From Stieleria neptunia (GTDB taxonomy: Bacteria > Planctomycetota > Planctomycetia > Pirellulales > Pirellulaceae): 64,000 nt of DNA. Positions 8,807 through 64,000 of this stretch are shown here, one piece after another. Positions within the stretch are counted from its first letter, which is position 1. Each line of letters opens with the position of its first letter. The position numbers were made by a program, and so were the translations under genes. Under the pieces are notes generated by a model. The model did not search any database, was not told where the DNA came from, and saw only the letters and a program-made list of their open reading frames with translations. The stretch lies in NCBI RefSeq assembly GCF_007754155.1, contig NZ_CP037423.1, positions 2,480,001 to 2,544,000 on the forward strand, in the 5' to 3' direction.

Positions 8807-8810
8807 TTCC

Positions 8811-9533: not shown

Positions 9534-9539
9534 TGTGAC

Positions 9540-10199: not shown

Positions 10200-10350
10200 T
10201 GCGTTGTTCCGCAAACTCCTTCCGTGCGAAAACCGATGGCATTGGGCGAATGCCGTCGGCTCCACCCGCGCCAAGCGTGGGAAACCGTCTGGACGCAAGC
10301 TGGAAGCTGACGCCACGTTTCTTTTCTTTTCGCCGACACCTGGGGATTCA

Positions 10351-50145: not shown

Positions 50146-51341
50146 TAAGCACGTCAGCACGAGTTATTCGGCATAACTTTCAAGTGATGGCATGTAGGTT
50201 ACCTCACCGATTTCGCATAGCTTCGTCGTCAGCGTTTGTAACAAGGTTTTGAATCGTTCCCAGGCCGTGGCGGGCATTTGTTGATACTTTAGTTGCCTCC
50301 ATAGTCGCTCGATCGAATTCAGTTCGGGACTATACGGCGGAAGATGATAAACCAGCAGCCCACGCTCTGCCCAGCGTTCGATCGATGCTTCAAAAGCTCC
50401 GCTGGTGTGGCAAGATGCATTGTCGAGGATGACCACCGTTGTTTGGTCAATCGTCTCACAAAAATCATCCATGATTTCAATGACCGTTTGCGTGTTGACG
50501 TACCCTTTGTGAAGATAGGTATGGGTGGTTCCATCTTGATGCTCAAAGCCAAGTGCCTGAACCGTCGCCCCATGGGCGCCGGTGACTGGCACATCGGTCC
50601 GTTCGCCGATGGGAAGCCATCCGTATGGCACCACGCCCTTAAGCGAAAATCCCGCTTCGTCAAAGTATACGACATCCAGTTCAGGTTCATTGAGCAACTC
50701 GGCGAGTTCCTCTTGAGCCAACCGGAAAGCCTTTTCGTCTCGTTTTTTCCGCAGGCTGCGCCGAAACCGCTTCCAGCTCAAATTGAATCGTCGGGCGTAA
50801 CGACGCAGCGAATGTCGGCTGATCGATTTGCCGGTCCGTGTTCGCAAACGCGACAGGACTGTGGCAGGCCGGGAGGGAAATTGCCGCAACAAATCTTTGA
50901 GGATTTGCTCTTCCTGTTCATTGAGCTTCCTCGGTCCGCCTGGTCGCTTTTCGTCCAGCAGGGCGTCTGGTCCGTCTTGTTCAAAGTGTTTGATCCAAGC
51001 TCGCACGCTGTCTCTACTGACACTAAGAATATCGACGATCTGCTCAATTTCGTATTGAGCATCGCTCAGAAGAATCGCGTGTGCCCGTATTCGTGTGTAA
51101 TGGTTTGGATGCTGTTTCCAAAGCTCAATCAGACGGTCACGTTGCTGCTGGTTCGTGATTTTCGCGAAAACGGTTGCAGGTCTTGCCATGGTAAGTCTCC
51201 CGTGATTGTCGGGAGGCACCGACCTTGCCAGGCCCGTCCGACGACCGGACAATTAGCTAGCAAAAGAACGAACCGCGCCCATCGTGACAAACCTGCAAAA
51301 GCCTTGCCAATTTCCATGAACTACACATGCTCACGTGCTTA
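50146..51341. mobile_element. IS630-family insertion sequence, complete with TA target duplication
   Basis: Near-terminal inverted repeats (left AGCACGTCAGCACG from 50148, right end complement AGCACGTGAGCATG ending at 51339) are each flanked by TA (50146-50147 and 51340-51341), the target duplication typical of IS630/Tc1 elements. The element is about 1192 bp and carries one transposase on the minus strand. Confidence 0.8.
50164..51189 (-). CDS. IS630-family transposase
   Basis: 341 aa from ATG at 51189. N-terminal helix-turn-helix part (QIVDILSVSRDSVRAWIKHF, then LDEKRPGGPRKL), and a DDE catalytic domain with YFDEAGF (D177), VILDNASCHT (D256) and PPYSPELNSIERLW (E294). Full length for the family and uninterrupted, so probably functional. 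It catalyses cut-and-paste transposition into TA. Confidence 0.93.
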   Translation of the reverse strand: MARPATVFAKITNQQQRDRLIELWKQHPNHYTRIRAHAILLSDAQYEIEQIVDILSVSRDSVRAWIKHFEQDGPDALLDEKRPGGPRKLNEQEEQILKDLLRQFPSRPATVLSRLRTRTGKSISRHSLRRYARRFNLSWKRFRRSLRKKRDEKAFRLAQEELAELLNEPELDVVYFDEAGFSLKGVVPYGWLPIGERTDVPVTGAHGATVQALGFEHQDGTTHTYLHKGYVNTQTVIEIMDDFCETIDQTTVVILDNASCHTSGAFEASIERWAERGLLVYHLPPYSPELNSIERLWRQLKYQQMPATAWERFKTLLQTLTTKLCEIGEVTYMPSLESYAE

Positions 51342-51463
51342 GTGGGTGCTCTCGAATACTCGGGGAAGGTTTTTTGAGGGATGACTGCGATGTCCGATGG
51401 TTCTGTTCGGTAGGATGGCGAAGCCAGGTGAAGCGGAGGCGGGCTCTGCTCTCAAGGAACTTC

Positions 51464-52861
51464 CTACCCAGCTAGTTCATTGGGGACCACTCGCAGGTTG
51501 AGTGCAGCTGCCCGTTTCGCCAGGTTTTCCATTGCTCGCTTCTTGTATTGCTGTTCGTAATAGTCGTTGCCGACATCGACATATTCCCTCCCGTACTTCA
51601 GCATCCCATAAACTATTTTCGCGAGCTTGTGGGCCGTCGCCGTGATCGCTTTGGGTGAACCAAGACGGGAACGGATCCTGCGAAAGAACGCTCCTAAGGC
51701 GCAGTTTGATCGTGCCAGGGACGCGGCGGCTGTTCGAAGTGCGGCGGCGGCTCGGTTCGCACTTGTACGTGTTTTACCACTGAGCAATTTCCCACCTGTC
51801 TTCTTACTGCCCGGACATAGGCAAAGCCAAGAAGTGAAATGCTTCTCTGTTGCCCACCTACTCATGTCGGTACCGATTTCAGAAATCAGTGTGATTGCGG
51901 ATTGACCGCTAATCCCATCAATGGTCGTCATGTCGACGCCCAGCACCCGGTAGAGCTGATTGCGCATATCGAACCGGGGGCTATTGCTTCCAGCTTTAGG
52001 AGCCTTCAGCTTCGGCAGAATCTCACCGTCACTTCGGTCGGAAAATGTACCCAAATGTTCTTCAAGCTTGGAATCGACTTCCGACAGTTTGGAACCGTAA
52101 AAACGGTACAGTTCCAGAGCCTGTTTTAACGCAAATACATGTTCTTCACGCCAATTGCCTTCCAGAGCTTTCGCGATCGTCGACTCGTCATTTTTGCACC
52201 TTGGATCGCGAAGTTTTGCGAGTAGGTGAGGGTCTCGACTGCCCGCAACAATGGCATCCAAAATGGCAAGGCCAGTGGTGCCGGTGATGTCCGAAATGAC
52301 GTGATGGAGCTGGACATTCATTTCCATCATCGCCTTCTGCATCCGTTGGATATGCTCGCTCGCGTTGGCGACGAGCATGGCTCGTTGCCGCATGTAAGAA
52401 CGCAGAACACAAATTGCCGAATCCGGTCGAAACGATCCGGCCAGCAAACCGTATGTGTGAAGCTGCTGGATCCACTGGCAATCCAAGACATCCGTTTTTC
52501 GGCTAGGAACGCTCTTCAGCTTGCCAGGCTCAACAAGCTTCACTTCAAACCCCCTGGCTTCGAGAAGCTCGAAAACTGGAATCCAATAGACCCCTGTTGA
52601 CTCCATTGCAATCGTTTTGATTCCGCACTCTTCCAACCAATCTGCGAGCGACGCCAGATCGGATGTAAAGGTGCCGAAGCAGCGAACGTGTGATGAGTCG
52701 CGATCGGAGGGCACGGCAACATAGTGCTGGGTCGAACCAATATCGATGCCGGCAGCGTTCAAGTTGATTGTGTCAAGTGATTGTGGAACGGGTGCGTTGT
52801 CAATCGGAAACCCACCACGTGATCGACGCTTAGGTTTCCCAGAGGATTTCTTCTTGGCCAT
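51464..52861 (-). CDS. IS110-family transposase (DEDD/serine recombinase, bridge-RNA guided type)
   Basis: 465 aa. RuvC-like DEDD residues D40 (AGIDIGSTQHYVAV), E87 (TIAMESTGVYW), D124 and D127 (SRKTDVLDCQW). The C-terminal Tnp20 domain carries the serine in GISGQSAITLISEIGTDMSR, plus GSKKTGGK and ANRAAAALRTAA. Longer than the average family member because of a basic N-terminal extension (KKKSSGKPKRRSRGG). IS110 enzymes are guided by an RNA made from a non-coding end of the element. The likely place here is the gene-free side 52862-53640 or 51345-51463. Intact reading frame. Confidence 0.93.
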   Translation of the reverse strand: MAKKKSSGKPKRRSRGGFPIDNAPVPQSLDTINLNAAGIDIGSTQHYVAVPSDRDSSHVRCFGTFTSDLASLADWLEECGIKTIAMESTGVYWIPVFELLEARGFEVKLVEPGKLKSVPSRKTDVLDCQWIQQLHTYGLLAGSFRPDSAICVLRSYMRQRAMLVANASEHIQRMQKAMMEMNVQLHHVISDITGTTGLAILDAIVAGSRDPHLLAKLRDPRCKNDESTIAKALEGNWREEHVFALKQALELYRFYGSKLSEVDSKLEEHLGTFSDRSDGEILPKLKAPKAGSNSPRFDMRNQLYRVLGVDMTTIDGISGQSAITLISEIGTDMSRWATEKHFTSWLCLCPGSKKTGGKLLSGKTRTSANRAAAALRTAAASLARSNCALGAFFRRIRSRLGSPKAITATAHKLAKIVYGMLKYGREYVDVGNDYYEQQYKKRAMENLAKRAAALNLRVVPNELAG

Positions 52862-53650
52862 GGCGGAACTCCGAAAGGTGACTTCAACGGAAAAACGCGG
52901 CAGGCGCGGGAGTAGGGCTCTGTTATTCTCTCAAACGGGGTCAACGCCGTGAGGCGAGCCACCAATGTCATTTTCAAGCAAACTCCCGGGACCAGGCTGA
53001 GAAGCGGGCACGAAGCACCACGTAGAGAACGGCCTCCACGACCCGCCGCGTATCCGACATGATAATCCTCACACCCAGTTCCTCGGAATCATTTGGTCAC
53101 TTGTGGCCTGCGGCGGCTGAGGAGCAACCCGCCAAGGAATCACCTGGTCTGCGATGCGCCGAAGGTGCTTCGTGCCCTCCGCCGGCCCCCGTGTCGGCGA
53201 AGGGTCGTTTGAACCGAGCGTTTGTCCTCGCTCTCCCCATTCGGACATCGCAGCAATGCCTCGAAAAACCTGGGTCCTGAGCGATTAGCCACTAAAATCC
53301 ACGAAGAACCCCTTCTGGGAGAGACGGCGTTTGCGCAGCAAGCAAACGCCAGAGGGGGCCGGCGCTGCAAAAGTCTCAGCGACTTCCGCTACGATCAACG
53401 CCGCCGTTTATCAATTCGACGTCCTCTGGAAGGAGGGCTCAACGCCCGCTGCCGACCGCTTCCCGCCATCTCCACCGGCTGATCCACCCACAATCTTGAA
53501 CGACTCGCTCCAAACCCGTAAGATTGGGTGGTAGGAGATATTCCGCGGTCCAGCCGAGGAATATGTGCTTTTTACCTCGGTTCAACCACCAATAATCAAT
53601 CGTTGAACTGGCCTTCGGGTTGAGCTGCAAACATTGATTGCGAGGTGCCG
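52862..53650. other. Gene-free stretch between two transposase genes
   Basis: Nearest 52862-53060 is the probable upstream end of the IS110 element (candidate bridge-RNA region). Hairpins are present at 53326-53350 (arms GGCGTTTGC / GCAAACGCC), at about 53490-53525 (CAATCTT / AAGATTG) and at 53579-53607 (GTTCAAC / GTTGAAC). The last two may be end structures of the IS91-like element that follows. No gene is seen. Confidence 0.5.
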
Positions 53651-54847
53651 ATGGCCATCACGCTTCAACAGATTTTCGGACGCTATTTCGACTCCTTCGC
53701 CTCGCGTTTTCACGTCTCGCGGGAGATGCTTCGCGCCGCATGGTGCATCCAACACTGTCGCACTCGGACGCTCGGTGGGCACGTCAACAGTTGCCCCGAA
53801 GGTCACTACCACAGCATCGCCTACAACTCCTGTCGGCATCGGTGCTGCCCCCAGTGCGCCTGGGTGGCCCGAGAGCAGTGGCTGGCCAAATGTAAGCAAC
53901 GCTTGCTGCCCTGCCCGCATCATCACATCGTCTTCACACTCCCGAGCGAACTGAATCGAATCTGGCGGTTCAACAAGGCTGCCTATGCAGAGACCCTCTT
54001 CAACGCCGCGAAGGAAACACTCCAGCAACTGCTCAAGGACCCCAAGTACCTCGGTGCGAAGCCTGGGATCCTGGCGGCGCTGCACACCTGGAACCAGACC
54101 CTGTTGCCGCACGTGCACTTGCATTGCATCGTCACCGCCGGCGGGCTGGCTGGTGATGGGACGTGGCGCCGTCCCCAAAAAGATTGTTTGCTGCCCCGCA
54201 AAGTGTTGATGCTCAAGTTCCGCGGCAAATTCAAGGCGATGCTTCAGCAGAAGGTTCAATCAGGCAAGATCCAATTGCCCGACTCGATGAGCGCGTCCGA
54301 CTTTCAGAAGCTGTTGGCCAAGCTCAGCGACAAACCGTGGAACGTCAAAATATTTGACGCCTATCGTGATGGCTCCGGTGTGGCGACCTATTTGGCTCGG
54401 TACATCAAGGGCGGCCCGATCGGCAAGTCACGGTTACTGGACGTTCAAGATGACAAGGTCGTGTTTCGCTATCGGATTGGAACGCAGGACGGTGGGGACG
54501 GGAAACGTCAGGGGGTGACCGCGTTGCCGATCGATCAGTTTCTCGGCCGCTGGCTGGAGCACGTGCCGCCGCGGCGATTTCAGACGGTCCGCGGCTACGG
54601 TCTGTACAGCGGCAACCAATACTCCCAGCTCGATGAGGCCCGTGCCGCGCTCGGCGTGGAGCCGCCAGAGTCCGACTCGCTTGAACAGTTGACTTGGCAA
54701 CAATGGTGCGAGTCGGCCGGGCTGCTTGATGCTTGCACGTGTCCGGTGTGTGGTAAACGGTTGGTCTCGCATCACGAATTTTCCGCCGGGCGGGATCCTC
54801 CCTCTGATGCGTATTCTTGGCGTGAGAAACAAGGGCAAGCCGCATGA
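53651..54847 (+). CDS. IS91-family (HUH, Y2) transposase
   Basis: 398 aa from ATG 53651 (GTG 53645 is two codons earlier). N-terminal zinc-finger cysteines (CIQHCRTRTLGGHVNSC, CRHRCCPQC), the HUH motif LPHVHLHCIVTAGGL with H154/H156/H158, and two tyrosines four apart in YLARYIKGGPIG (Y247, Y251), the Y2 signature of IS91/ISCR-type rolling-circle transposases. Complete length. Such elements can drag neighbouring DNA along by one-ended transposition. It sits 181 bp before the first attC-like site of the cassette array. Confidence 0.9.
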   Translation: MAITLQQIFGRYFDSFASRFHVSREMLRAAWCIQHCRTRTLGGHVNSCPEGHYHSIAYNSCRHRCCPQCAWVAREQWLAKCKQRLLPCPHHHIVFTLPSELNRIWRFNKAAYAETLFNAAKETLQQLLKDPKYLGAKPGILAALHTWNQTLLPHVHLHCIVTAGGLAGDGTWRRPQKDCLLPRKVLMLKFRGKFKAMLQQKVQSGKIQLPDSMSASDFQKLLAKLSDKPWNVKIFDAYRDGSGVATYLARYIKGGPIGKSRLLDVQDDKVVFRYRIGTQDGGDGKRQGVTALPIDQFLGRWLEHVPPRRFQTVRGYGLYSGNQYSQLDEARAALGVEPPESDSLEQLTWQQWCESAGLLDACTCPVCGKRLVSHHEFSAGRDPPSDAYSWREKQGQAA

Positions 54848-55028
54848 TGCCGCTGGAGAATTTCACAAGGGACAGCCATTGCCACCGACGGTACCGAAGG
54901 TGCGCGCCCGATGAGGTCCATTCGTTGGGGACAGCTGCGAGAATCCCCCACGACGGGTCGTTCGATCGGGTAAACTCCTAAACATCGGTCGAGCCGGTCC
55001 CACGACATCGGGGCCGAACGAAGGCCTC
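54848..55028. other. Junction between IS91-like element and cassette array
   Basis: No gene. Contains a short hairpin GAACGA / TCGTTC (about 55014-55032) that touches the first attC. It could hold the end of the IS91-like element. Confidence 0.4.
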
Positions 55029-55119
55029 GTTCAACCAAAAAATGCACCCGAGTCGCGAAGTCGGGCGTTTTGACATTGGAGAATCTCTCGTCGCGACCGG
55101 GTGATTTTAAACGTTCACG
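55029..55119 (+). repeat. attC-like site 0
   Basis: 91 bp. R'' GTTCAAC (canonical RYYYAAC), R' GTTCACG. Left arm AAAAT, extrahelical G55044, CACCCG, extrahelical A55051, GTCGCG. Right arm CGCGAC, CGGGTG, ATTTT (55092-55108), four unpaired bases, GTT 55113. Confidence 0.85.
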
Positions 55120-55542
55120 CTGGTAACCCACGCCTGACGACAGCGTCCACTTCTTCTTTTGCGTCTTCTCGCGTTCTCTTGTGGCAATTGATTTGCTGTC
55201 GTTTGATCGTGACCCGAAGGGCGCCCACCGGAATTCGTCGAACCTCCGTTTCCTGGGTTTCGCATTTGATGTCACGGTTCGATAGGTGCGCGGTCGACTC
55301 GGCCGAAGAAGACAAACCGACGCCTGTCGATCCCAACGCTGACAACCGACGCCTGACGTGCCGACCGCTGATTGGGATACCGAATTTCCCACGGCGATTC
55401 CGATCGAGTACATTGGCAATCAGCGATGATGGAACGGGCTGTCGTCGTGGCCGGACGCGTGAACCACGTGGTGCACCGCAGTCGGCGAGTTGAGTTTGTT
55501 TTTGAGTTCAGGTCCATCGCGCCGACGCGGTGACCACCGCCG
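55114..55542 (+). mobile_element. Repeat cassette X, copy 1
   Basis: 429 bp between two GTT junctions, about 40 bp shorter than copies 2-4. Starts TTCACGCTGGTAACCCACGC and ends in attC site 1. Several frames are open, but none is conserved as protein between copies. It precedes the coding cassette at 55543. Confidence 0.8.
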
Positions 55543-55548
55543 TTCCCC
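55458..55548 (+). repeat. attC-like site 1 (X type)
   Basis: 91 bp. R'' CGTGAAC, R' GTTCCCC. Arms GTGGT-G-CACCGC-A-GTCGGCG against CGCCGAC-GCGGTG-ACCAC. Loop GAGTTGAGTTTG.... Confidence 0.85.
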
Positions 55549-55582
55549 TACTTAAGAACAAGCTCTCACGAAACGCATCAAC

Positions 55583-56047
55583 GTGAAATTTACGCTGGCA
55601 ACACTGCTGCTATTTGTCACGGCCTTCGCCATCGCGTTCGCAATGGTCTCGAATCCCAGCGGTTTCGGTGCGGACGCCGTCTACGTGTTTCATGTTCTCG
55701 CGGCTGCAACCGCCCTCGTCATCGCGCGGTACACCAAGGGATCGATTCACGCTTACGCACTTACGTTTGGCGTATTTGGATTTGCGACTCACTTTATGCA
55801 CGCTTGCCCCTATGATTTGCAGCAATGGATCTACGAGAACATAACGTACGATGGCCCCGATACCTTGCCGATGGGCAATGGTTGGGAAATGGGGCCGCAT
55901 CGCATCATCGCGACTTGGTTTGATCTATTGATCGCATTGTTTGCCGCATCCCTTGCATCGAGTATCATTCGAGGATTCGAGAACGACGATGCAGAAACCG
56001 CAACACAACAAGGGGAACCATCACATGCACCGAAGGACGCGAGCTGA
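55583..56047 (+). CDS. Cassette gene: small membrane protein
   Basis: 154 aa from GTG 55583, 41 nt after the cassette junction. Begins MKFTLATLLLFVTAFAIAFA, and has further hydrophobic segments at about 32-50 and 55-72 and one near 108-130 (WFDLLIALFAASLASSII); charged C-terminal tail. The stop codon lies inside attC site 2, as is common for integron cassettes. No family recognised. Base composition is lower in GC than the chromosomal genes, consistent with foreign origin. Confidence 0.75.
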   Translation: MKFTLATLLLFVTAFAIAFAMVSNPSGFGADAVYVFHVLAAATALVIARYTKGSIHAYALTFGVFGFATHFMHACPYDLQQWIYENITYDGPDTLPMGNGWEMGPHRIIATWFDLLIALFAASLASSIIRGFENDDAETATQQGEPSHAPKDAS

Positions 56048-56102
56048 GCGGTTTGGCAATGGAGAGTCTCTCGCGCGTCCTCGGTGATGTGTACCGTTCA
56101 TC
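56012..56102 (+). repeat. attC-like site 2
   Basis: 91 bp. R'' GGGGAAC, R' GTTCATC. Arms CACAT-G-CACCGA-A-GGACGCG against CGCGTCC-TCGGTG-ATGTG. Fully complementary apart from the two extrahelical bases and the unpaired spacer. Confidence 0.9.
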
Positions 56103-56491
56103 GGCTTCAGGTCAGATCAAGCGAGCGTTGCGATGGACACTGCGACGAGCAAACGTCCAACGCCTGAAGACGACTCGCGTACCAGAACAATCCAACGCCT
56201 GTCAATAATCCGACGCCTGTCGATTCAACCAACGCCTGTCGAATAAACCGACGCCTGTCAAAATCCGACGCCTGTCAAAATCCGACGCCCGGACACTGCA
56301 CCGCTGACCTCCGACGCCTGACCACTCGGTAGCAAGTTTGCTTTCGGAGATTCGCATCGGGTAAAGTAAAGCAACGGATGACCGAGACGCCCGAACACGA
56401 GCACGCGATGAACAATGCGATGAACGGGAGTTGCGGGCGCCGTCTTTTCGTGAGTTCAGGTTTTCTGGCCGCAACCCCGTTATCGCTACCG
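56097..56491 (+). mobile_element. ORF-less cassette with a short tandem motif
   Basis: 395 bp, no coding frame on either strand that looks real. Bases 56186-56325 repeat the word CCGACGCCTGTC (or CCAACGCCTGTC) about seven times at spacings of roughly 19-23 bp. The same word is scattered through every X cassette. Confidence 0.7.
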
Positions 56492-56497
56492 TTCGCG
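56407..56497 (+). repeat. attC-like site 3
   Basis: 91 bp. R'' GATGAAC, R' GTTCGCG. Arms GCGAT-G-AACGGG-A-GTTGCGG against CCGCAAC-CCCGTT-ATCGC. The inner stems share no sequence with site 2 yet keep the same plan. Confidence 0.9.
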
Positions 56498-56959
56498 CTG
56501 CTAACCGGCGCCTGGTGACAGCGTCCACTTCTTCTTTTGCGTCTTCTCGCGTTCTTTTGTGGCAATTGATTTGCTGTCGTTTGATCGTGACCCGGAGGAC
56601 GTCCACCGGATTTCATCGGACCTCTGTTTCCTGGGATTCGCATTTGATGTCACGGTTCGATAGGTGCGCGGTCGACTCCACCGACGAAGACAAACCGGCG
56701 CCTGTTGATCGAGTACGAGCACGAGTACCGCGATGCTGAGTACGAGTACGATTCAAGACAGACCGACGCCTGAAGTGCCGACCGCAGATTGGGACACTCG
56801 ATTTCCCACGGCGATTCCGATCGAGTACATTGGCCGTCAGCGACGATGGCTCGGGCTGTCGTCATGGCCGACCGCGTGAACGAAGTGGTGCACCGCAGTC
56901 GGCGAGTTGAGTTTGTTTTTGAGTTCAGGTCCATCGCGCCGACGCGGTGACCACCGCCG
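56492..56959 (+). mobile_element. Repeat cassette X, copy 2
   Basis: 468 bp. Very close to copy 3, which follows it directly, so two X cassettes stand in tandem. Contains a TACGAG-rich stretch (GAGTACGAGCACGAGTACCG) and CCGATCGAGTACATTGGC before its attC. Confidence 0.85.
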
Positions 56960-56965
56960 TTCACG
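56875..56965 (+). repeat. attC-like site 4 (X type)
   Basis: 91 bp. R'' CGTGAAC, R' GTTCACG. Near-identical to sites 1, 5, 7 and 14. Confidence 0.85.
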
Positions 56966-57427
56966 CTGCTAACCGACGCCTGACGACAGCGTCCACTTCT
57001 GCTTTCGCGTTTTCTTGCGTTCTTTTGTGGCATTTGATTCGCCGTCGTTGGACCGTGCCCCGGAGAACGCCCACCGGATGTCATCGAACCTCCGTTTACT
57101 GGGTTTCGCATTTGATGTCACGGTTCGATAGGTGCGCGGTCGACTCGGCCGGCGAAGGCAAACCGACGCCTGTCGATCGAGTACGAGCACGAGTACCGCA
57201 ATGCTGAGTACGAGTACGATCCAAGACAAACCGACGCCTGAAGTGCCGACCGCAGATTGGGACACTGGATTTCCCACGGCGATTCCGATCGAGTACATTG
57301 GCGACCAGCGGCGATGGCTCGGGCTATCGTCGTGGCCGGACGCGTGAACCACGTGGTGCACCGCAGTCGGCGAGTAGAGTTTGTTTTTGAGTTCCGGTCC
57401 ATCGCGCCGACGCGGTGACCACCGCCG
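56960..57427 (+). mobile_element. Repeat cassette X, copy 3
   Basis: 468 bp, directly after copy 2 and directly before the coding cassette 57428-58187. Confidence 0.85.
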
Positions 57428-57433
57428 TTCTGC
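57343..57433 (+). repeat. attC-like site 5 (X type)
   Basis: 91 bp. R'' CGTGAAC, R' GTTCTGC. Arms as in site 1. Confidence 0.85.
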
Positions 57434-57449
57434 GTGCAAGACAAAATCT

Positions 57450-58148
57450 ATGACCCGCAACGCATGGCGAAATTTCCGAACCGTCGTCCGCTATGTAGTC
57501 TATGCTTGCTGCGTGATAGTCGTGTTGTTTCCAATCCTGGTATGTGGATCTTTCCTCATCAATCCTTTTGGAGGATTTGCCGGATCATCGGAATTCGCTA
57601 ACAAGACTGGTTCCGCTGCCAAACGCTCGATTAATGAATGGCCTTCGAATGTTGCTACCGCGGCAGTCCGGTCGGTGTCGCGAAAACGCGACTACTCGAT
57701 CGACAGTCACTCAACGTGGTATAAGATTGAATTAGATACTGCTTCCGCTCAACTCTGGGCAGACTCTGTGCATTCAGATCGCGAGCGCCATTCTCGCGAA
57801 TCTTTACGGCCAGACGATCGAGGCTTGGAAGGCGTTCGCAGGATCGTACCTGGCCCACCACCACTACACTCAAAGACAGGTGACACACCTGACTGGTGGT
57901 CCCCGCCGCCAATCGATTTTCGCGCAACCGAAGCAATGAAGTGGTATTCCGGCTATGATTCTGGTGTTGGGCAGGCGGCATATACGGGATATGATGCTGA
58001 CAAGCAAACATTGTGGGTGTATGAGTACGCTTGCCAACATGATCGACTCTGGGAACCAGATCAGATACCTGATGGCGACGTCTTCTCGCGACTCAATGAA
58101 AACGCAGAACCAAACGATGCAACCGAGCGGCGAAAACGGGCGTTTTGA
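57450..58148 (+). CDS. Cassette gene: membrane-anchored protein of unknown function
   Basis: 232 aa from ATG 57450, 22 nt after the junction. One strong N-terminal membrane segment (about 14-38, VVYACCVIVVLFPILVCGSF) and a soluble remainder rich in Ser, Arg, Asp and aromatic residues (WWSPPPIDFRATEAMKWYSG, TLWVYEYACQHDRLWEP). The stop lies inside attC site 6. Low-GC, non-host-like codon choice. No family recognised. Confidence 0.7.
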   Translation: MTRNAWRNFRTVVRYVVYACCVIVVLFPILVCGSFLINPFGGFAGSSEFANKTGSAAKRSINEWPSNVATAAVRSVSRKRDYSIDSHSTWYKIELDTASAQLWADSVHSDRERHSRESLRPDDRGLEGVRRIVPGPPPLHSKTGDTPDWWSPPPIDFRATEAMKWYSGYDSGVGQAAYTGYDADKQTLWVYEYACQHDRLWEPDQIPDGDVFSRLNENAEPNDATERRKRAF

Positions 58149-58193
58149 AGTGGTTGATCTTCCGTCGCCGCCGGCTGATCGTCAACGTTCACG
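58104..58193 (+). repeat. attC-like site 6
   Basis: 90 bp. R'' GCAGAAC, R' GTTCACG. Arms ACGAT-G-CAACCG-A-GCGGCGA against TCGCCGC-CGGCTG-ATCGT, with one mismatch in the middle stem. Confidence 0.85.
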
Positions 58194-58656
58194 CTGGTAA
58201 CCCACGCCTGACGACAGCGCCCACTTCTTCTTTTGCGTCTTCTCGCGTTCTCTTGTGGCAATTGATTTGCTGTCGTTTGATCGTGACTCGAAGGTCGCCC
58301 ACCGGATGTCATCGAACCTCCGTTTACTGGGTTTCGCATTTGATGTCACGGTTCGATCGGTGCGCGGTCGACTCGGCTGACGAAGACAAACCGACGCCTG
58401 TCGATTCGAGTAGGAGTACGAGTACCGCAATGTTGCGTACGAGTACGATCCAAGACAATCCGACGCCTGAAGTGCCGACCGCTGATTGGGGCACGGAATT
58501 TCCCTTGGCGTTTCCGATCGGCTACATTGGCCCTTGGCGGCGACGGCTCGGGCTGTCGTCGTGGCCGGACGCGTGAACTATGTGGTGCACCGCAGTCGGC
58601 GAGTCGAGTTTGTTTTTGAGTTCAGGTCGATCGCGCCGACGCGGTGACCACCGCCG
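58188..58656 (+). mobile_element. Repeat cassette X, copy 4
   Basis: 469 bp, same start as copy 1 (TTCACGCTGGTAACCCACGC), followed by the coding cassette 58657-59978. Confidence 0.85.
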
Positions 58657-58662
58657 TTCGCC
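58572..58662 (+). repeat. attC-like site 7 (X type)
   Basis: 91 bp. R'' CGTGAAC, R' GTTCGCC. Arms as in site 1 with one or two substitutions. Confidence 0.85.
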
Positions 58663-58679
58663 AACGAGAGAGGATCGTT

Positions 58680-59399
58680 TTGCGTAGTTTCGCTTACTGT
58701 TCGCTAGACCGGCTGTGTTCGCTCTCAACGGCAACAATCATCTGCACGGCTATCTTCGCGTTCGGATGTACAAAAACCATCGAGTCCGAATCGCATGCCG
58801 AAGTACCACGCGACTCAACCGTAACACAAGAGGACGATGCCGCAAAACGAGCAATTGCATCAAACGACTCATACTGGATGGCAATGGACGGGGTGCAACA
58901 ACGCTTTCCCGACGCTGTTGTCTACACGTCACCCGGACGCGATTTCCCGCCTGGCAACCCAGATTTTACACTCGAAGAACAAGAGAGGATCGATAGCCAT
59001 CGTGGCCAGCAGGTGATTCTTCTTGTGGACATCGTTGATATCTATCGAGTCGGCACGACATACCGGATTGTTTGTCAGAACATCATGGATCACATGTTCA
59101 TTCTTGATAGCGATAAAAACACGGTTGACTCGATAATTGAAGTCGCCAAGACGGACGATGTATTTTGGAATCGTACCTTCGCAATTGTCGCCGAACTGGC
59201 CGCGTCCAAAGTTGCGTACGAGAGGCTACGTCACGCAGAGGTCGTCTATGAGGCGGAAGAGTGGTACGAAGATTCCGAGGCGGAATTGCGAGAGGAGGGG
59301 CTTCATCCCACGGTATACGTTACTGGACAGTGCGTAAGAACCGTTCACATTCCAGGTTTTGACCTATACGTTGACTGGGAGGCAATCACGCCACGTTAA
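58680..59399 (+). CDS. Cassette gene: lipoprotein
   Basis: 239 aa from TTG 58680, 23 nt after the junction. The start is set by GAGAGAGGA nearby and by the lipoprotein signal that follows (LCSLSTATIICTAIFAFGC). The soluble part has DAVVYTSPGRDFPPGNPDFT, VILLVDIVDIYRVGTTYRIV and an acidic C-terminal section (EVVYEAEEWYEDSEAELREE). No family recognised. First of two or three genes in one cassette. Confidence 0.7.
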   Translation: MRSFAYCSLDRLCSLSTATIICTAIFAFGCTKTIESESHAEVPRDSTVTQEDDAAKRAIASNDSYWMAMDGVQQRFPDAVVYTSPGRDFPPGNPDFTLEEQERIDSHRGQQVILLVDIVDIYRVGTTYRIVCQNIMDHMFILDSDKNTVDSIIEVAKTDDVFWNRTFAIVAELAASKVAYERLRHAEVVYEAEEWYEDSEAELREEGLHPTVYVTGQCVRTVHIPGFDLYVDWEAITPR

Positions 59400-59400
59400 C

Positions 59401-59640
59401 ATGGCGGGACTCGTGATTCCTGCTCCAATTATCGCAGCGGCGTTGATCTACACGCATTACGATGAGACCGCGAACGATCGAGCATACCTACAGGGGGTCA
59501 GGCGATACCGTTTTCAAGATCGACCAGCGGACCGGAGAGGTATGGCGGTATTCCCAATATCTGTTTATACCGGTAAACACATTGAAGCCGGAACGGTCAT
59601 CCAATTCCAGTTGAGTCTTCAACGCCACCACAATGATTGA
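59401..59640 (+). CDS. Cassette gene, uncertain frame: small membrane-anchored protein
   Basis: 79 aa from ATG 59401, one base after the previous stop. Starts with a hydrophobic helix (LVIPAPIIAAALIY). From about 59470 another frame reads more like a natural protein (YRGSGDTVFKIDQRTGEVWR, stop near 59615), so the gene may carry a frameshift or one of the frames may be a shadow. Confidence 0.35.
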   Translation: MAGLVIPAPIIAAALIYTHYDETANDRAYLQGVRRYRFQDRPADRRGMAVFPISVYTGKHIEAGTVIQFQLSLQRHHND

Positions 59641-59890
59641 TCCACCCGATCCCGTACTGTCTCTCTACGGCATTCGCGCCGGTGGACCTTGGATAATCGT
59701 TCACGGTTTGCGATTGGTTCAATTCGACCACCACTCGGAATGGAAATACGATCTGCATTGGACCGGGAGTGGATGGTCCAAGCCAGACGCCGACGACGCA
59801 TATGTTTTTGAGTACGAAAAGAACGCCCAATTTCACATTGATGAGAATCGCGACGAACTTATACGCTCGATCCCACGCAGCTTCGAATAG
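59633..59890 (+). CDS. Cassette gene: small protein of unknown function
   Basis: 85 aa from ATG 59633, overlapping the previous frame by eight bases. Aromatic- and Asp-rich (FDHHSEWKYDLHWTGSGWSK), no signal peptide. The stop is 8 bp before the R'' box of site 8, which supports it as the last gene of the cassette. Confidence 0.5.
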   Translation: MIDPPDPVLSLYGIRAGGPWIIVHGLRLVQFDHHSEWKYDLHWTGSGWSKPDADDAYVFEYEKNAQFHIDENRDELIRSIPRSFE

Positions 59891-59897
59891 CAAAAAC

Positions 59898-59984
59898 GGC
59901 GAACCTGCCGAAGGCATGGAGCCGGGATTGATCTGAAGCAACTTCGTTCGCCGAATGAAATGACGCCGTACTCACCCGTTCATC
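59898..59984 (+). repeat. attC-like site 8 (degenerate)
   Basis: R'' GGCGAAC is followed in the correct register by 8 nt, G, 6 nt, A and GCCGGG. GTTC boxes occur at 59945 and 59978, but neither right arm pairs with the left one. The distance to the second (87 bp) suits a decayed site. Confidence 0.45.
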
Positions 59985-60006
59985 CTTTGCATCGCCTAAC
60001 GCCTTC

Positions 60007-60561
60007 ATGCCATTTATGACTCCAAATGGACTGAAAATCCGACTTGAAGAAGTCGCATCGTTCAACGCCATTCAACAAGCACGTTTTGGAACAGCGGAAG
60101 ATGTGCTGCATTCCACCGAATCGCTTGAAATGGCTCCTGCACTTCTTTCGTTCGTCGGAGGAATGGTTGCATTTGCAGCCGGCCAGCCATTGTGGGTGGT
60201 TGTTGCGACGATGATTGCGACTCAGTTTGTCCCCCGAGAACTTTATGCTTGGATTCCCGGTTGGCTATCACTTTCTCATTTTGCAAACCCGATTTTGCGG
60301 CTGGTCGCCGGCCTTGCCGCAGGGTATTACTTCGCAGGATGGAACGGATCGTTGACTTACTTCGCTGGAATGGTTGGGGCGTTTGTTCTACCAATGATGC
60401 TAACGCCCTTGCATATTTCTATGTTTGGGATGACTCAAGCTGAACGAAGTTTTCTGCTTGCTTGTGCGAAGCACGGGGTGCCGAAATCTGCGATTGACGC
60501 CATCTTCGATGAAAACGGCGAACCAGACGATGCAGGTGAGTCGCCGAGTTTAGTTTATTGA
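60007..60561 (+). CDS. Cassette gene: membrane protein
   Basis: 184 aa from ATG 60007, about 28 nt after the GTT at 59978. Three to four hydrophobic segments (about 44-60, LLSFVGGMVAFAAG; 62-80; 93-112; 117-135, FAGMVGAFVLPMMLTPL), charged C-terminal tail. The last 15 codons run through the left arm of attC site 9 (NGEPDDAGESPSLVY). The only coding cassette here not preceded by an X copy. No family recognised. Confidence 0.75.
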   Translation: MPFMTPNGLKIRLEEVASFNAIQQARFGTAEDVLHSTESLEMAPALLSFVGGMVAFAAGQPLWVVVATMIATQFVPRELYAWIPGWLSLSHFANPILRLVAGLAAGYYFAGWNGSLTYFAGMVGAFVLPMMLTPLHISMFGMTQAERSFLLACAKHGVPKSAIDAIFDENGEPDDAGESPSLVY

Positions 60562-60606
60562 AGTGGTGAGTCCTTCGCGGCGACCACGTGATCGTTAACG
60601 TTCGCG
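60517..60606 (+). repeat. attC-like site 9
   Basis: 90 bp. R'' GGCGAAC, R' GTTCGCG. Arms ACGAT-G-CAGGTG-A-GTCGCCG against CGGCGAC-CACGTG-ATCGT. Closely related in sequence to site 11. Confidence 0.9.
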
Positions 60607-61132
60607 CTGCTGAATCGTACTCGTACTCAGGGCGCAGCCCGGTACTCGTACTCCTACTCGATACAGCTTCCAACAAACCAACGCCGGTCGCCGATGCTGC
60701 CGAATGTTGCGTTCGACCTCGCCCTCGTTGATTTCATCAGACCTCCATGGCCAGTGATGGGCGTCTGATACCACGGTTGGGATGGTGTGCTGAATCGTTG
60801 GCCACTGAGATCTCCGAGGACACCGAGGCGAGACAGTTTCTGCTCTGTGCTCTCGGAGTCCTCTGTGGCAAAGTGCACTTGAGAGTTCACACGGACGACC
60901 AACGCCTTGACCTTGCCACCATTGGGACACCGAATTTCCAGTGGCTATTCCAATCGGGTACATTGGCTGCTAGCGACGATGGTTCCAAAGTGGCGTTCCG
61001 GCCGGATGCGCGAACCACACGATGCACGCCCAGTTCGCTCATCGTTGCGAGACCCAAACTTTGACCCGTCCCCGCGATCACTCGACTGCCGACTCCAATC
61101 CGCTGGTCCGCGAACGGGGTGATCGTCGACGT
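60601..61132 (+). mobile_element. Diverged X-like cassette, copy a
   Basis: 532 bp, no credible gene. The right half aligns with X (TTGGGACACCGAATTTCC, GGGTACATTGGC). A TACGAG-rich block present in X occurs here inverted near 60618-60660 (GTACTCGTACTC). It precedes the PIN-domain cassette. Confidence 0.75.
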
Positions 61133-61138
61133 TCGCCG
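61009..61138 (+). repeat. attC-like site 10 (long-loop type)
   Basis: 130 bp. R'' CGCGAAC, R' GTTCGCC. Arms ACGAT-G-CAC(G)CCC-A-GTTCGC against GCGAAC-GGGGTG-ATCGT, with one extra base. The loop of about 65 nt is related to that of site 12 (GTTGCGA..C.CAAACTTT.AC). Confidence 0.8.
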
Positions 61139-61150
61139 ACAAGACCAAAC

Positions 61151-62155
61151 ATGTCACTTACTGTCGTTCTCGATTCGAACATCTGGCTAAATGAACAGAT
61201 GCTGCGACACAGCGTCGGTAGCGCTGTTCGCTTCTTCCTTCGTAGGCACAGCGCACACGTGGTTGTTCCAGAAGTAGTACGGCGAGAGGTCGAACTGCAT
61301 CTCGAAAAAGAATTGAAAGAACTGACATCACGTCTTCGGGAAGGGCATCGGCGACTGCTTGGACTCGTTGGAGAGCTTAAAGAACAGGTCCTGCCGACCG
61401 ACGACGAATTGACAGTAATCGCATCTACTGCGTTCGCAAACGCTGGGATTGAAATTACTGACTTCCCTTTTTCGCTTAAGTCCGCACGATCCTCATTTGA
61501 GAAGACGATTCGATCTGAGCCGCCCAGTGGGCCAAAGAATCAACAATTCAAGGATGGAGTAATCTGGGCAGATTGTCTAACGCTCGCCATGGACTCACCA
61601 GTTCTTTTCATTACGCAAGACAAGGCTTTCTACAAAGCAAAAGATTACAAAAAGGGGCTGGCAGACAATCTCATTGAAGAGGCCCAGCAGGCAACGCACG
61701 AAATATCAATCGCGCACGACATCAGTTCAATTCTTGAACGTATTGGCGACCCGATCGAAATAGATTATTCGTTTCTTCACCGCGAATACTACCCGACAAT
61801 AAGCGACGGAACAGAACGGCTTATTGGTTCCGAGGGCTACGAGCTTGCTGAATTGCTGTCAGGCGATCATACGGTTTTTGCGACAAATGATCCCAACATC
61901 GGTCATGTCGAGTTCTCCCTCCAGTATAAATGCGTTCACCCTACGCTGAGCGATGGCTCGCTGGTTGCAAAGGGAGAGTGCGTGATTAACTCCGTCTCAG
62001 GAAACCTGTCGGACTTTCGAAACCGTGGTGAAGAATTTCATTTCGTGAACGCTGAAGGTGAACAACAAAAACGCAATATCGTCCTGGGGGTCGGCAGTAT
62101 TGTGCTTGGACATCGAACGGTTCAACACTCAGTTCGAGCCGTTCTAGACGCGTAA
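61151..62155 (+). CDS. Cassette gene: PIN-domain protein (DUF4935-like)
   Basis: 334 aa from ATG 61151, 18 nt after the junction. Begins SLTVVLDSNIWLNEQML (first PIN acidic residue D9); further acidic positions are EVVRREVELHLE and KDGVIWADCLTLAMDSPVLF, then ITQDKAFYK, the normal order of a PIN nuclease. The C-terminal 150 residues are an added beta-rich domain. PIN proteins of this size are RNA- or DNA-cutting toxins or defence effectors. No antitoxin gene is visible beside it. The stop is 5 bp before attC site 11. Confidence 0.8.
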   Translation: MSLTVVLDSNIWLNEQMLRHSVGSAVRFFLRRHSAHVVVPEVVRREVELHLEKELKELTSRLREGHRRLLGLVGELKEQVLPTDDELTVIASTAFANAGIEITDFPFSLKSARSSFEKTIRSEPPSGPKNQQFKDGVIWADCLTLAMDSPVLFITQDKAFYKAKDYKKGLADNLIEEAQQATHEISIAHDISSILERIGDPIEIDYSFLHREYYPTISDGTERLIGSEGYELAELLSGDHTVFATNDPNIGHVEFSLQYKCVHPTLSDGSLVAKGECVINSVSGNLSDFRNRGEEFHFVNAEGEQQKRNIVLGVGSIVLGHRTVQHSVRAVLDA

Positions 62156-62160
62156 GAAAC

Positions 62161-62250
62161 GGCGAACCAGCGGATGCACGTGAGTCGCCGAGTTGAGTTT
62201 GTTGAAGTGGTAAGTCTTTCGCGGCGACCACGTGATCCGTATCGTTCGTG
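62161..62250 (+). repeat. attC-like site 11
   Basis: 90 bp. R'' GGCGAAC, R' GTTCGTG. Arms CGGAT-G-CACGTG-A-GTCGCCG (G62176 and A62183 extrahelical) against CGGCGAC-CACGTG-ATCCG, four unpaired bases, GTT 62244. The best-formed site in the array. Confidence 0.92.
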
Positions 62251-62677
62251 GCGGTAGACGTGGCTGCGATCGACCAACGCCTGTCGTCCATGCTGCTGAT
62301 TGGTGCGCTCGAAGTTGGCCCACTTGAAGTCATCGAACCTCCGTTTCCTAGGATTCGCTTTTGATGTCGCGGTTTGACGGGTGCGCGGTCGACTCGGCTG
62401 ACGAAGGCAAACCGACGCCTGACGACTTCAGCGCTGGCGACCGACGCCTGACATGCCGGCTGCAGATTGGGACGCTCGGATTTCCCTTGGCAAATCGAAT
62501 CGAGTACATTGGCAAGCCGCGACGATGTTCCAAACCGGCGTGCCGACCGACGCCACGAACCCGGCGATGCACCCCAGCACACTCATTGTTGCGATACACA
62601 AACTTTCACACCGACCGCCTTCATCACGCTCACGCCATCTCAATCGTAGTGGTCCGTGTGCGAGGTGATCGCTGATG
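62245..62677 (+). mobile_element. Diverged X-like cassette, copy b
   Basis: 433 bp without a credible gene. Shares GTCATCGAACCTCCGTTTCC, GTGCGCGGTCGACTCGGC and TCGAGTACATTGGC with X but ends in a long-loop attC. It precedes the cassette 62678-63292. Confidence 0.75.
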
Positions 62678-62683
62678 TTATTT
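62554..62683 (+). repeat. attC-like site 12 (long-loop type)
   Basis: 130 bp, same length as site 10. R'' CACGAAC, R' GTTATTT (the one right box without C after GTT). Arms GCGAT-G-CACCCC-A-GCACAC against GTGTGC-GAGGTG-ATCGC, with one mismatch. Confidence 0.85.
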
Positions 62684-62698
62684 GCACGGACGCTTCCA

Positions 62699-63211
62699 AT
62701 GTTCGCACCCGCTGCCATCCTAAAGACGTTTGTCGCTTTGGTGCTGATCGCGCCCCCGGCATTTGAATCAACTGACGCCACCGTCGCACGGTTGCGATCG
62801 CACGGGATCCAGCTCTCCGGCCGAGACCCGTGCGAGGGCACCGGTCTTCATTGTGCGTTGCTTCCTGTCTATACGGCGGGCGACGTTTGCTCTGTCTTTC
62901 TACCCCGACGCGGATACACGGTTGCCGATCTTCGTACGCTTTCTCGTCTTACCAACCTGCAGCATGTCCGATCAAATCGGATGCTGTCGGAACGCGAATA
63001 CAACATTCTCAATGCGTCTGTACCCAGAAGCGTATGGCTGTTCTGCAATGTGCGGCTCGATGATGGTACACTCAAGCGGTTGGGCACTCGCTATAGTCGT
63101 CAACCCAACACTTACGAAGACGTAAACGGCGACGGCGTTGTTGACGAACATGATGGATTTGATTCCGCCGCCGGTCCGGCTGTTCCACCGCGTATCGAAA
63201 ACGGCAAATAA
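62699..63211 (+). CDS. Cassette gene: exported protein of unknown function
   Basis: 170 aa from ATG 62699; an earlier ATG at 62675 straddles the attC right box, so the later start, 22 nt into the cassette, is preferred. Signal-like N-terminus (MFAPAAILKTFVALVLIAPP), then HGIQLSGRDPCEGTGLHCAL, a short leucine-rich-like stretch (VADLRTLSRLTNLQHVRSN) and a C-terminal EF-hand-like DVNGDGVVDEHDG, as in dockerin-type calcium loops. The stop falls inside the R'' box of site 13. No family recognised. Confidence 0.65.
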   Translation: MFAPAAILKTFVALVLIAPPAFESTDATVARLRSHGIQLSGRDPCEGTGLHCALLPVYTAGDVCSVFLPRRGYTVADLRTLSRLTNLQHVRSNRMLSEREYNILNASVPRSVWLFCNVRLDDGTLKRLGTRYSRQPNTYEDVNGDGVVDEHDGFDSAAGPAVPPRIENGK

Positions 63212-63298
63212 CCATGAAATGCACGCGAGGACGGGAGTCGCGGTTTTTGGTCTGCTTGCATGTTTTTCGCCCGTCCCGCGTGATTTCTACCGTTCACG
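63206..63298 (+). repeat. attC-like site 13
   Basis: 93 bp. R'' AAATAAC, R' GTTCACG. Arms GAAAT-G-CACGCG-A-GGACGGG against CCCGTCC-CGCGTG-ATTTC, fully paired. Confidence 0.9.
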
Positions 63299-63972
63299 CT
63301 GCTAGCCGACGCCTGACGACAGCGCCCACTTCTTCTTTTGCGTCTTCTCGCGTTCTCTTGTGGCAATTGATTCGCCGTCGTTTGATCGTGACTCGAAGGT
63401 CGCCCACCGGATGTCATCGAACCTCCGTTTACTGGGTTTCGCATTTGATGTCACGGTTCGATAGGTGCGCGGTCGACTCGGCCGAGGAAGACAAACCGAC
63501 GCCTGTTGATTCGGGTACGAGCACGAGTACCGCGGTGCTGAGTACGAGGGCGGCTTTCAGGCCCGGAGGGCCGGTAGAGTGTCTGCCGGTGGCGTGAGCC
63601 ACCGGGGGTGGATTCAAAGGCACGCCCTAGGCCCAGCGGGTCGACACAATATCCGGGCTTGGAGTGGACCCGGAGCCACATTGTGCCGGCCTTCCAGGCC
63701 TCCGCAAATCCGTTCTTTCGATACCGGTGGCTGACACCACCGGCAAGCATTGTGCCAGCCCTCCGGGCTTCATCCCGACTCCACATAGAAATCGGTTCAG
63801 CGAGGGGAGTGAAAGTTTCCACGGCGATTTCGATGGAGTACATTGGCAAGCAGCGGCGATGGCTCGGGCTGTCGCCATGGCCGGACGCGTGAACCATGTA
63901 GTGCACCGCAGTCGGCGAGTTGAGTTTGTTTTTGAGTTCAGGTCGATCGCGCCGACGCGGTGACCACCGCCG
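63293..63972 (+). mobile_element. Repeat cassette X, copy 5, interrupted
   Basis: 680 bp. Starts TTCACGCTGCTAGCCGACGC and matches X to about 63548. A foreign block of about 265 bp (63549-63815) replaces about 60 bp, and X resumes at TTTCCACGGCGATT and ends in site 14. Confidence 0.85.
63549..63815. repeat. GC-rich hairpin insertion inside X copy 5
   Basis: Several nested palindromes (TTTCAGGCCCGGAGGGCCGG, GGTGGCGTGAGCCACC, GCCGGCCTTCCAGGCC, ACCGGTGGCTGACACCACCG). Absent from the other four X copies, so a recent insertion with loss of about 60 bp. Confidence 0.7.
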
Positions 63973-63978
63973 TTCTGC
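63888..63978 (+). repeat. attC-like site 14 (X type)
   Basis: 91 bp. R'' CGTGAAC, R' GTTCTGC. Arms as in site 1. The next cassette begins at 63973 and runs out of the window. Confidence 0.85.
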
Positions 63979-64000
63979 CATGGAGTTTTTGTCCACCACA

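Follow-up and report, generated by a model that had tools for sequence, protein, structure and literature searches.

A planctomycete integron array that issues from an integrase-less head and is likely served in trans by a distant integrase

Clusters of attC sites without a nearby integrase gene are termed CALINs (Cury et al., cited in PMC8618304 and PMC9024848); three origins have been proposed for them, loss of intI among these (PMC8618304), and they are stated to be mobilized in trans (PMC12444791). PMC9024848 presents attI sites outside class 1 as poorly described, and PMC11014356 reports gene-less promoter cassettes in the superintegrons of Vibrionaceae. From planctomycetes, an attC model (PMC8352920) and the intI of Rhodopirellula baltica (PMC3108266) have already been reported. 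In the literature searched, which comprised open-licence papers only, we found no description of conserved heads that combine a promoter and an attI and lack an integrase. Here we describe an integron-type cassette array in a window of 64,000 nucleotides, which represents bases 2,480,001–2,544,000 of a single contig of 10,975,817 bp. Judged by its sequence, the host is a planctomycete of the genus-level group of Stieleria sedimenti and Rhodopirellula sp. SM50, because its integrase, IntI, is 99% identical to the IntIs of both (and 81% identical to that of Planctomycetes bacterium TBK1r).

We consider it highly probable that this array issues from a head without an integrase gene, made up of a predicted promoter and a likely attI, and that the sole IntI found in the genome, 6.5 Mb away, likely operates on it in trans. 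The evidence concerns the cassettes and their attC, the heads, the integrase and the comparison of the same chromosomal places across sister species.

The recurring sites were captured in two ways: a structural detector, which scores AAC, a spacer, one pair, a bulge, six pairs, a second bulge, a stem and GTT, with a small bonus for bulges of G and A; and a covariance model built on 13 window sites, for which the structure was set by hand, a MAFFT-only alignment having misplaced their middle. Matches of this model to those window sites hold by construction. A search with such a model, which had been proposed in an earlier note on this DNA, gave at least 150 matches in the whole genome, and the attC clusters were studied in 601 kb of DNA fetched around them. 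With both strands searched, the detector finds 203 attC in this cluster DNA, a total that is a lower bound, and each cluster uses one strand.

An excised circle rebuilds R′ from its own first bases; therefore, R″ should pair with the start of its own cassette and not with that of the next one. Within the window, R″ runs average 7.9 bases against the own start (14 cassettes) versus 4.6 against the same site (15 sites), and none of 100,000 permutations gave as high a sum for the own starts, with one of the 15 GTTs misplaced, which lowers the result. Across the clusters of the genome, a run of at least six is seen against the own start in 130 of 182 cassettes (192 minus ten gaps over 3.5 kb) versus 39 of 182 for the same site, and the summed own-start runs amount to 1230 versus a permuted mean of 783 and maximum of 842 (2000 permutations). 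With the two commonest starts excluded, the figures are 84 versus 22 of 124 cassettes. Since most cassettes end in an R″ that is reverse complementary to their own first bases, the blocks of the earlier note are cassettes and the sites separating them are attC.

The hairpins themselves are uniform. Thirteen of the 15 window sites noted earlier are strict attC hairpins of a single geometry, each scoring above 12: AAC, 7 nt, one pair, a bulged G, six pairs, a bulged A and the stem, and back to 8 nt and GTT. At a score of 12, the detector finds no site on either strand of window positions 1–52900, nor any on the minus strand of the array. A Markov control of equal length, run on one strand only, yielded a single site versus the 203. 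With a stricter detector (Watson–Crick pairs only, no bulge bonuses) there remain 179 attC versus five in the control over both strands, and among these the 7/8 spacing is kept in 172, the bulged G in 174 and the bulged A in 176. The arms co-vary, with 93.6% Watson–Crick cells in 72 distinct arms versus 53.9% on permutation (maximum 59.4%), although the former value is inflated by the detector having picked sites by pairing; the failure of the arms to co-vary, which the earlier note had named as a sign against an integron, is not what was found. The textbook R box reads GTTRRRY, and classic attC have C as the first bulged base. Here the fourth base of the R box is C in 156 of the 203 sites, A in 24 and G in 23, a box variant that agrees with the earlier remark on non-standard R boxes, and the first bulged base on the top strand is G in 199 of the 203. 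No Rfam family matches the window at gathering scores; we know of no attC family in that database.

The array starts at 53602, within a head shared with the intI locus, and not at 55029 as first supposed, and it runs beyond the window to genome position 2,564,991, with 29 attC in all. Its features within the window are as follows:

53496–53524 (+): predicted cassette promoter of the head; −35 TTGAAC, 17-bp spacer, −10 TAAGAT
53547–53587 (+): head hairpin, likely part of attI; two 13-nt arms, 15-nt loop, 10 of 13 pairs Watson–Crick
53602–53604 (+): head GTT, start of cassette 1 and likely attI crossover; R″-predicted start GTTGAAC
53602–55112 (+): cassette 1, IS91-family transposase gene (53645–54847) with its own attC; NF033538, Y2_Tnp, Zn_Tnp_IS91
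55029–55116 (+): attC 1; detector and covariance model
55113–55541 (+): ORF-less cassette (without an open reading frame), recurring family; repeat families and family match
55458–55545 (+): attC 2; detector and covariance model
55542–56095 (+): gene cassette, ORF 55583–56047, 154 aa, no Pfam match; R″/own-start run 8 nt
56012–56099 (+): attC 3; detector and covariance model
56096–56490 (+): cassette without a clear gene, short ACGCCTG-type repeats; R″/own-start run 8 nt
56407–56494 (+): attC 4, perfect; detector, not among the covariance-model matches listed
56491–56958 (+): ORF-less cassette, recurring family; repeat families and family match
56875–56962 (+): attC 5; detector and covariance model
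56959–57426 (+): ORF-less cassette, recurring family; repeat families and family match
57343–57430 (+): attC 6; detector and covariance model
57427–58186 (+): gene cassette, ORF 57450–58148, no Pfam match; R″/own-start run 9 nt
58104–58190 (+): attC 7; detector and covariance model
58187–58655 (+): ORF-less cassette, recurring family; repeat families and family match
58572–58659 (+): attC 8; detector and covariance model
58656–59945 (+): cassette with three small ORFs (58680–59399, 59359–59640, 59633–59890), no Pfam match; R″/own-start run 7 nt
59898–59949 (+): attC 9, relic with R″/R′ present and L arms unrecognised; neither in the detector output nor among the covariance-model matches listed
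59946–60599 (+): gene cassette, ORF 60007–60561, no Pfam match; R″/own-start run 8 nt
60517–60603 (+): attC 10; detector and covariance model
60600–61130 (+): diverged ORF-less cassette related to the recurring family; matches repeat families D4 (70%) and D5 (80%), no family match of its own
61009–61134 (+): attC 11, long form, one additional bulge; by eye, covariance model 54.9 bits (by construction), missed by the detector
61131–62243 (+): gene cassette, PIN-domain protein 61151–62155; PIN_12 53.1 bits (cut-off 32), R″/own-start run 8 nt
62161–62247 (+): attC 12; detector and covariance model
62244–62676 (+): ORF-less cassette, diverged family member; R″/own-start run 10 nt, repeat families and family match
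62554–62680 (+): attC 13, long form; detector and covariance model
62677–63291 (+): gene cassette, ORF 62675–63211, no Pfam match; R″/own-start run 9 nt
63206–63295 (+): attC 14; detector and covariance model
63292–63971 (+): ORF-less cassette, recurring family, longer copy; repeat families and family match
63888–63975 (+): attC 15; detector and covariance model

The description of this DNA as a planctomycete integron array thus stands, on the attC geometry, the R″ rule and the near-identity of the IntI to those of its relatives, and most of its particulars hold with amendments. The fifteen hairpin sites, one degenerate, that were originally counted resolve into 13 strict ones, a bulged form and a relic. 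The bulged form (61009–61134), recognized by eye, has one extra bulged base and a long loop. The site near 59900, whose right end had been misplaced, retains the R″/R′ match, the detector finds no L arms there, and it is a relic or truncated attC; the one near 56390 becomes a perfect attC when placed at 56407–56494. The small genes had been said to point the same way and to stop in or within about 8 bp of a site: all eight ORFs taken as cassette genes, picked by hand from an ORF list without a gene finder, lie on the plus strand, and in the six gene cassettes after the transposase cassette the last stop falls inside the attC in four and 6–8 bp before it in two. The transposase stop departs from this, lying ~180 bp upstream of its own attC. 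No PADLOC match was obtained for eight cassette proteins. To the left of the head, on the minus strand at 50164–52861, are two large ORFs, which by eye resemble IS630- and IS110-type transposases.

A single family of ORF-less cassettes accounts for 84 of the 182 spans across the clusters of the genome, with six copies in the window by family match and a seventh, diverged one (60600) by repeat families. The motif TACATTGG is present in 58 spans, in 41 of which it lies 132–133 bp before the next cassette, and in most a TTTCCC block is found 17 bp upstream of TACATT. By analogy with the gene-less cassettes of Vibrio (PMC11014356), these cassettes may be promoters. The other recurrent unit, cassette 1, encodes a transposase (NF033538, 375.8 bits versus a cut-off of 125) with Y2_Tnp and Zn_Tnp_IS91 domains, and its element is present in the genome in seven copies of 99–100% identity over at least 1447 bp and in one copy at 81%. 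Three copies diverge inside the attC of site 1, and we considered whether that site might be an end of the IS91 element; this was rejected because two different kinds of attC follow the same gene in the seven copies shown, and for the same reason the transposase unit is treated as a cassette. As an observation in its own right, an element of 2.7 kb with a tyrosine recombinase, IS91-like as judged by eye, lies past the window (genome ~2548732–2551460; 8732–11460 of fetched segment L009). It starts exactly at an attC GTT, with another GTT after it in the four copies shown, and from these sequences the attC GTT looks like its target.

The head from which the window array issues has a counterpart at the intI locus, to which it is 80% identical. 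There, the ~120 bp before the first cassette comprise TTGACT, 17 bp, TACTAT, a 13-bp inverted repeat, AATAATTAATG and GTT. The R″ of the first attC in the window predicts a start, GTTGAAC (7 bases), that is found exactly at the head GTT and nowhere else in the upstream sequence searched, and the start predicted for the intI head likewise falls exactly, and only, at its GTT (genome 9038333). In 7 of 11 clusters (the window, intI, 7.28, 9.19, 2.71, 1.44 and 2.14 Mb) the start expected from R″ of the first attC detected coincides with the GTT of a head, with the key occurring once more further upstream in two of the seven. A regular-expression search had shown only two heads; the R″ prediction, a motif scan and a sequence model showed the rest. 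We distinguish three types: type A is found at window positions 53496–53604, at the intI locus and at four further places, one of which (9.88 Mb) emerged from the type A model; the R″ prediction revealed a type B head at 2.71 Mb and type C heads at 1.44 and 2.14 Mb; and the motif scan added type C heads at 1.21 and 8.20 Mb. In all, twelve heads were found in the genome (six A, one B and five C), with an intact intI at one only. The six type A heads score 121–139 bits in a type A model that all six were used to build, and of the six matches to the type C model, four had gone into building it; five extend to its end, and the sixth, a partial one, is not counted. All nine clusters seen with at least three attC (30, 7, 29, 3, 10, 25, 47, 19 and 30) have a head at most 1.6 kb upstream of the first detected attC. 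One type C head matched by this model, at genome 237526–237641 on the minus strand, is outside the fetched clusters. In the 1.21-Mb cluster (genome 1222663–1241379), 18,058 bp separate two pairs of equal-scoring attC, suggesting that part of this array was duplicated.

In this genome, a predicted promoter of the form TTGA, 17 bp, TA..AT is common to all six heads of type A, and type C heads by eye have TTGCAA-16-GATAAT, weaker at 1.21 Mb. Among 39 type A and B heads examined from seven genomes (six weak matches left out), the commonest base averages 77% at the hexamer positions versus 55% in the spacer. Read on the top strand, the head hairpin cells of these 39 heads comprise 423 Watson–Crick, 43 A·C, 6 G·T and 35 other combinations, counts that come from related and not independent sequences. 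An A·C on the top strand is a G·T on the bottom one, and therefore selection seems to have preserved folding of the bottom strand in the head hairpin, as it has in attC, the arms of which have 44 A·C versus 19 G·T and 60 others with a detector that favored top-strand G·T. IntI uses the bottom strand of attC. The head hairpin, too, probably functions as bottom-strand DNA, and it is likely a part of attI, with the head GTT as the likely crossover.

The only IntI above the TIGR02249 cut-off in the genome (380 bits, cut-off 265) is encoded at 9,036,714–9,037,652 on the minus strand, 6.5 Mb from the window, and heads a cluster of 47 attC. The other 51 TIGR02249 rows in the genome are below the cut-off; nine of the ten next-best matches, which lie in the fetched DNA, show 26% identity to IntI across 335 residues, and one sub-cut-off match belongs to an IS91-like element. 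In the fetched DNA around the window array there is no intI match, only an IS-type recombinase at 26%, so that the original report of no integrase, and the search for an IntI that went with it, come out differently at the two scales: none near the array, one in the genome. With 29 attC and no intI, the array belongs to the CALINs (at least two attC, no integrase nearby) and not to the complete integrons, which have an adjoining intI. IntI (6702–8063, minus strand, of fetched segment L014) is 453 residues long, and its integron core spans 138–450. The ~135 residues preceding this core have no Pfam match, and with several Pirellulaceae relatives the alignment already begins at residue 1.

A search of 60 genomes recovered type A model matches in nine, this genome included, all of the same genus (with compared genomes labelled G000, the window's own, G001, G002 and so on): seven in G000, nine in G001, six each in G002, G005 and G012, seven in G013, two in G009 and one weak match each in G008 and G011. 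All 14 genomes of the genus contain matches to the attC model, from 12 to at least 150 in each. In the fetched DNA, 29 of the 39 type A and B heads are followed by attC on the same strand, with none upstream and none on the other strand; five of the ten without downstream attC are cut by a contig end within ~0.5 kb. As judged by their upstream flanks, many heads are orthologous between species: the 7.28-Mb head recurs in G001, G002, G005 and G012, the 9.19-Mb one in G002, and the 2.71-Mb one in G001 and G002.

It is at these shared places that the behavior of the heads can be followed. In 20 of 31 head pairs (11 groups), the similarity stops 1–12 bases past the G of the GTT, and in 15 of these 20 there is no intact intI at either head. 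For example, at the 7.28-Mb place G002 and G005 are 94% identical over 2504 bp of flank and head up to +3, and their first cassettes differ; G000 and G002 at 9.19 Mb are 92% identical up to +3, and a G001/G013 pair is 98% identical over 975 bp up to +2. Type C pairs follow the same pattern, with 83% over 1632 bp up to +3 for G000/G012 at 1.44 Mb and 95% over 1623 bp up to +3 for G002/G005. In three of the 31 pairs, the similarity continues past the GTT, and by eye both members begin with the ORF-less family. The remaining eight do not span the GTT, including four with a decayed G012 head, three with an eroded G001 locus and one more. A comparison of this kind had been proposed earlier, with conserved content and no clean breakpoints at GTT as the outcome that would speak against an integron; what we found instead is content changing at the GTT behind shared flanks in the above 20 pairs. 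At one type C head, G000 and G005 differ by 610 bp; the possibility that this represents a clean insertion of a single cassette was dropped, the shared part resembling the common ORF-less cassette.

Several heads also retain traces of a lost integrase. Type A heads adjoin the window-type integrase in G000, G002, G005, G009 and G012; type C adjoins the G001 integrase, a truncated second integrase in G012 and a second one in G005. At one shared place, where the head side is 92–97% identical, G012 has an intact intI, ~0.9 kb is missing in G002 and ~1.2 kb in G001, and the head is kept in all three. Partial IntI traces lie beside five type A and B orphan heads (three in G001, one in G002 and one in G012), and ~0.9 kb is missing inside the integrase at a G001 type C head, of which an intact copy exists elsewhere in G001. 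Two type C heads of the window’s genome share ~0.55 kb with the region adjoining intact type C integrases. On account of these remnants and deletions, at least part of the orphan heads are, as their sequences indicate, former complete integrons. Of the 39 type A and B heads, a whole intI adjoins five and no trace of one lies beside 29, for which we infer the same origin; at the 7.28-Mb place there is no intI trace in any of five species, four of which keep the GTT.

These observations can be accommodated in a scenario in which an ancestor would have had several complete integrons, whose integrase genes would have been deleted in succession, leaving the heads in place. The one IntI that is left, cutting and joining at the GTT of attC and heads wherever these are located, would still insert and remove cassettes at orphan heads, or at any rate at the A/B heads to which it belongs by type. 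Any cassette inserted at such a head would thereby come under the predicted promoter of that head, which would transcribe the first cassettes, with the ORF-less cassettes likely adding promoters further along the array. A more far-reaching version, which we regard as evenly poised between being right and wrong, is that of a multi-headed integron: one IntI would run chromosome-wide promoter–attI platforms in trans, the clusters now classed as integrase-less debris would be active sites of capture, their positions fixed and maintained from species to species, and each would provide its first cassette with a promoter of its own, redundant integrases would have been removed by evolution, and the attI of this lineage would be a bottom-strand hairpin site.

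A number of observations weigh against the trans-acting scenario. Some concern the pairing rule and the heads: 52 of the 182 cassettes fail the R″ run of six (some of these in spans with missed sites or insertions); in 4 of the 11 clusters the R″ prediction misses the head, three of which have a head by sequence, with likely missed sites in between; no head was found at the 5.39-Mb cluster, which has two attC; among the 39 A/B heads, five of type B have no good −35, that at 2.71 Mb being one of them; and the relatedness of the sequences behind the hairpin counts tells in the same direction. Five heads with 5–6 kb of downstream DNA have no strict attC there (L242, L252, L256, L259 and the 0.09-Mb head, the last with only a weak attC-model match ~1 kb downstream). 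Others concern the species comparison, in that the first cassette at the 7.28-Mb place is of the ORF-less family in G000 as well as in G002 and the group member G005_L244 was grouped by head similarity and not by flank. Yet others concern the integrase itself: the window’s genome has type C heads and no cognate type C integrase over the cut-off, the draft genome G013 has heads and no IntI at E 1e-60, and G001 has a type C integrase only; despite no type A integrase found in either, three type A heads shared by G013 and G001 differ at the GTT. This might reflect either a recent loss of the integrase, the action of another integrase or changes older than the loss.

The alternative that fares best, though we think it rather unlikely, is that the orphan arrays are dead relics, that is, degraded integrons or ordinary CALINs with immobile cassettes and heads that have not yet decayed. 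CALINs are indeed described as degraded integrons in PMC9024848, and the intI remnants beside five type A and B heads and one type C head, together with the absence of the GTT at some heads (G012_L256 and G005_L244), fit this. However, heads that lack intI in both species compared differ in their first cassettes at the GTT behind flanks of up to 98% identity, the promoter hexamers are on average more conserved than the spacer, and orphan arrays hold up to 30 attC. We give far less credence to the arrays having been moved as blocks by the IS91-family element that forms the first cassette both in the window and at the intI locus, with the head copied along. The same transposase cassette does follow both heads (99% over ~1.6 kb), and related elements are frequent in the arrays; but the other four type A heads of this genome start with a different first cassette, though copies of the element lie further along the 9.19 and 9.88 clusters, and the window and intI heads are only 80% identical versus 99–100% for the element copies. 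That there is no integron at all and the sites are a dispersed hairpin repeat family between genes has next to no chance of being right: seven window blocks are copies or relatives of one non-coding repeat, but the pairing of R″ with the own start, the fixed two-bulge geometry, the arm covariation and an IntI with its own head contradict it.

For the study of such systems, the R″ rule allows the likely attI to be located from the sequence itself, and sister species whose heads share their flanks make cassette turnover comparable place by place. The origin and activity of CALINs thereby become testable. The findings also suggest that a single integrase can supply several promoters simultaneously.

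In comparison with the sedentary chromosomal integrons of the Vibrio/Xanthomonas type, the present system is alike in having an intI, a head with a predicted promoter and likely attI, a long attC array and ORF-less cassettes. It differs in that attC clusters were seen at eleven places, with nine large ones each having an upstream head and one integrase found, and in its sites, with GTTC in 156 of 203 R boxes and G as the first bulge in 199 of 203. The gene-less cassettes of Vibrionaceae (PMC11014356) are similarly interspersed among gene cassettes; here a single family makes up 84 of 182 spans. The earlier planctomycete reports are from the same phylum, and in their accessible parts (PMC8352920 and PMC3108266) neither the heads nor the multi-platform layout is described. 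With CALINs the system shares attC clusters that have no intI nearby; unlike them, it has a head conserved across species, at the GTT of which the cassettes differ from one species to the next.

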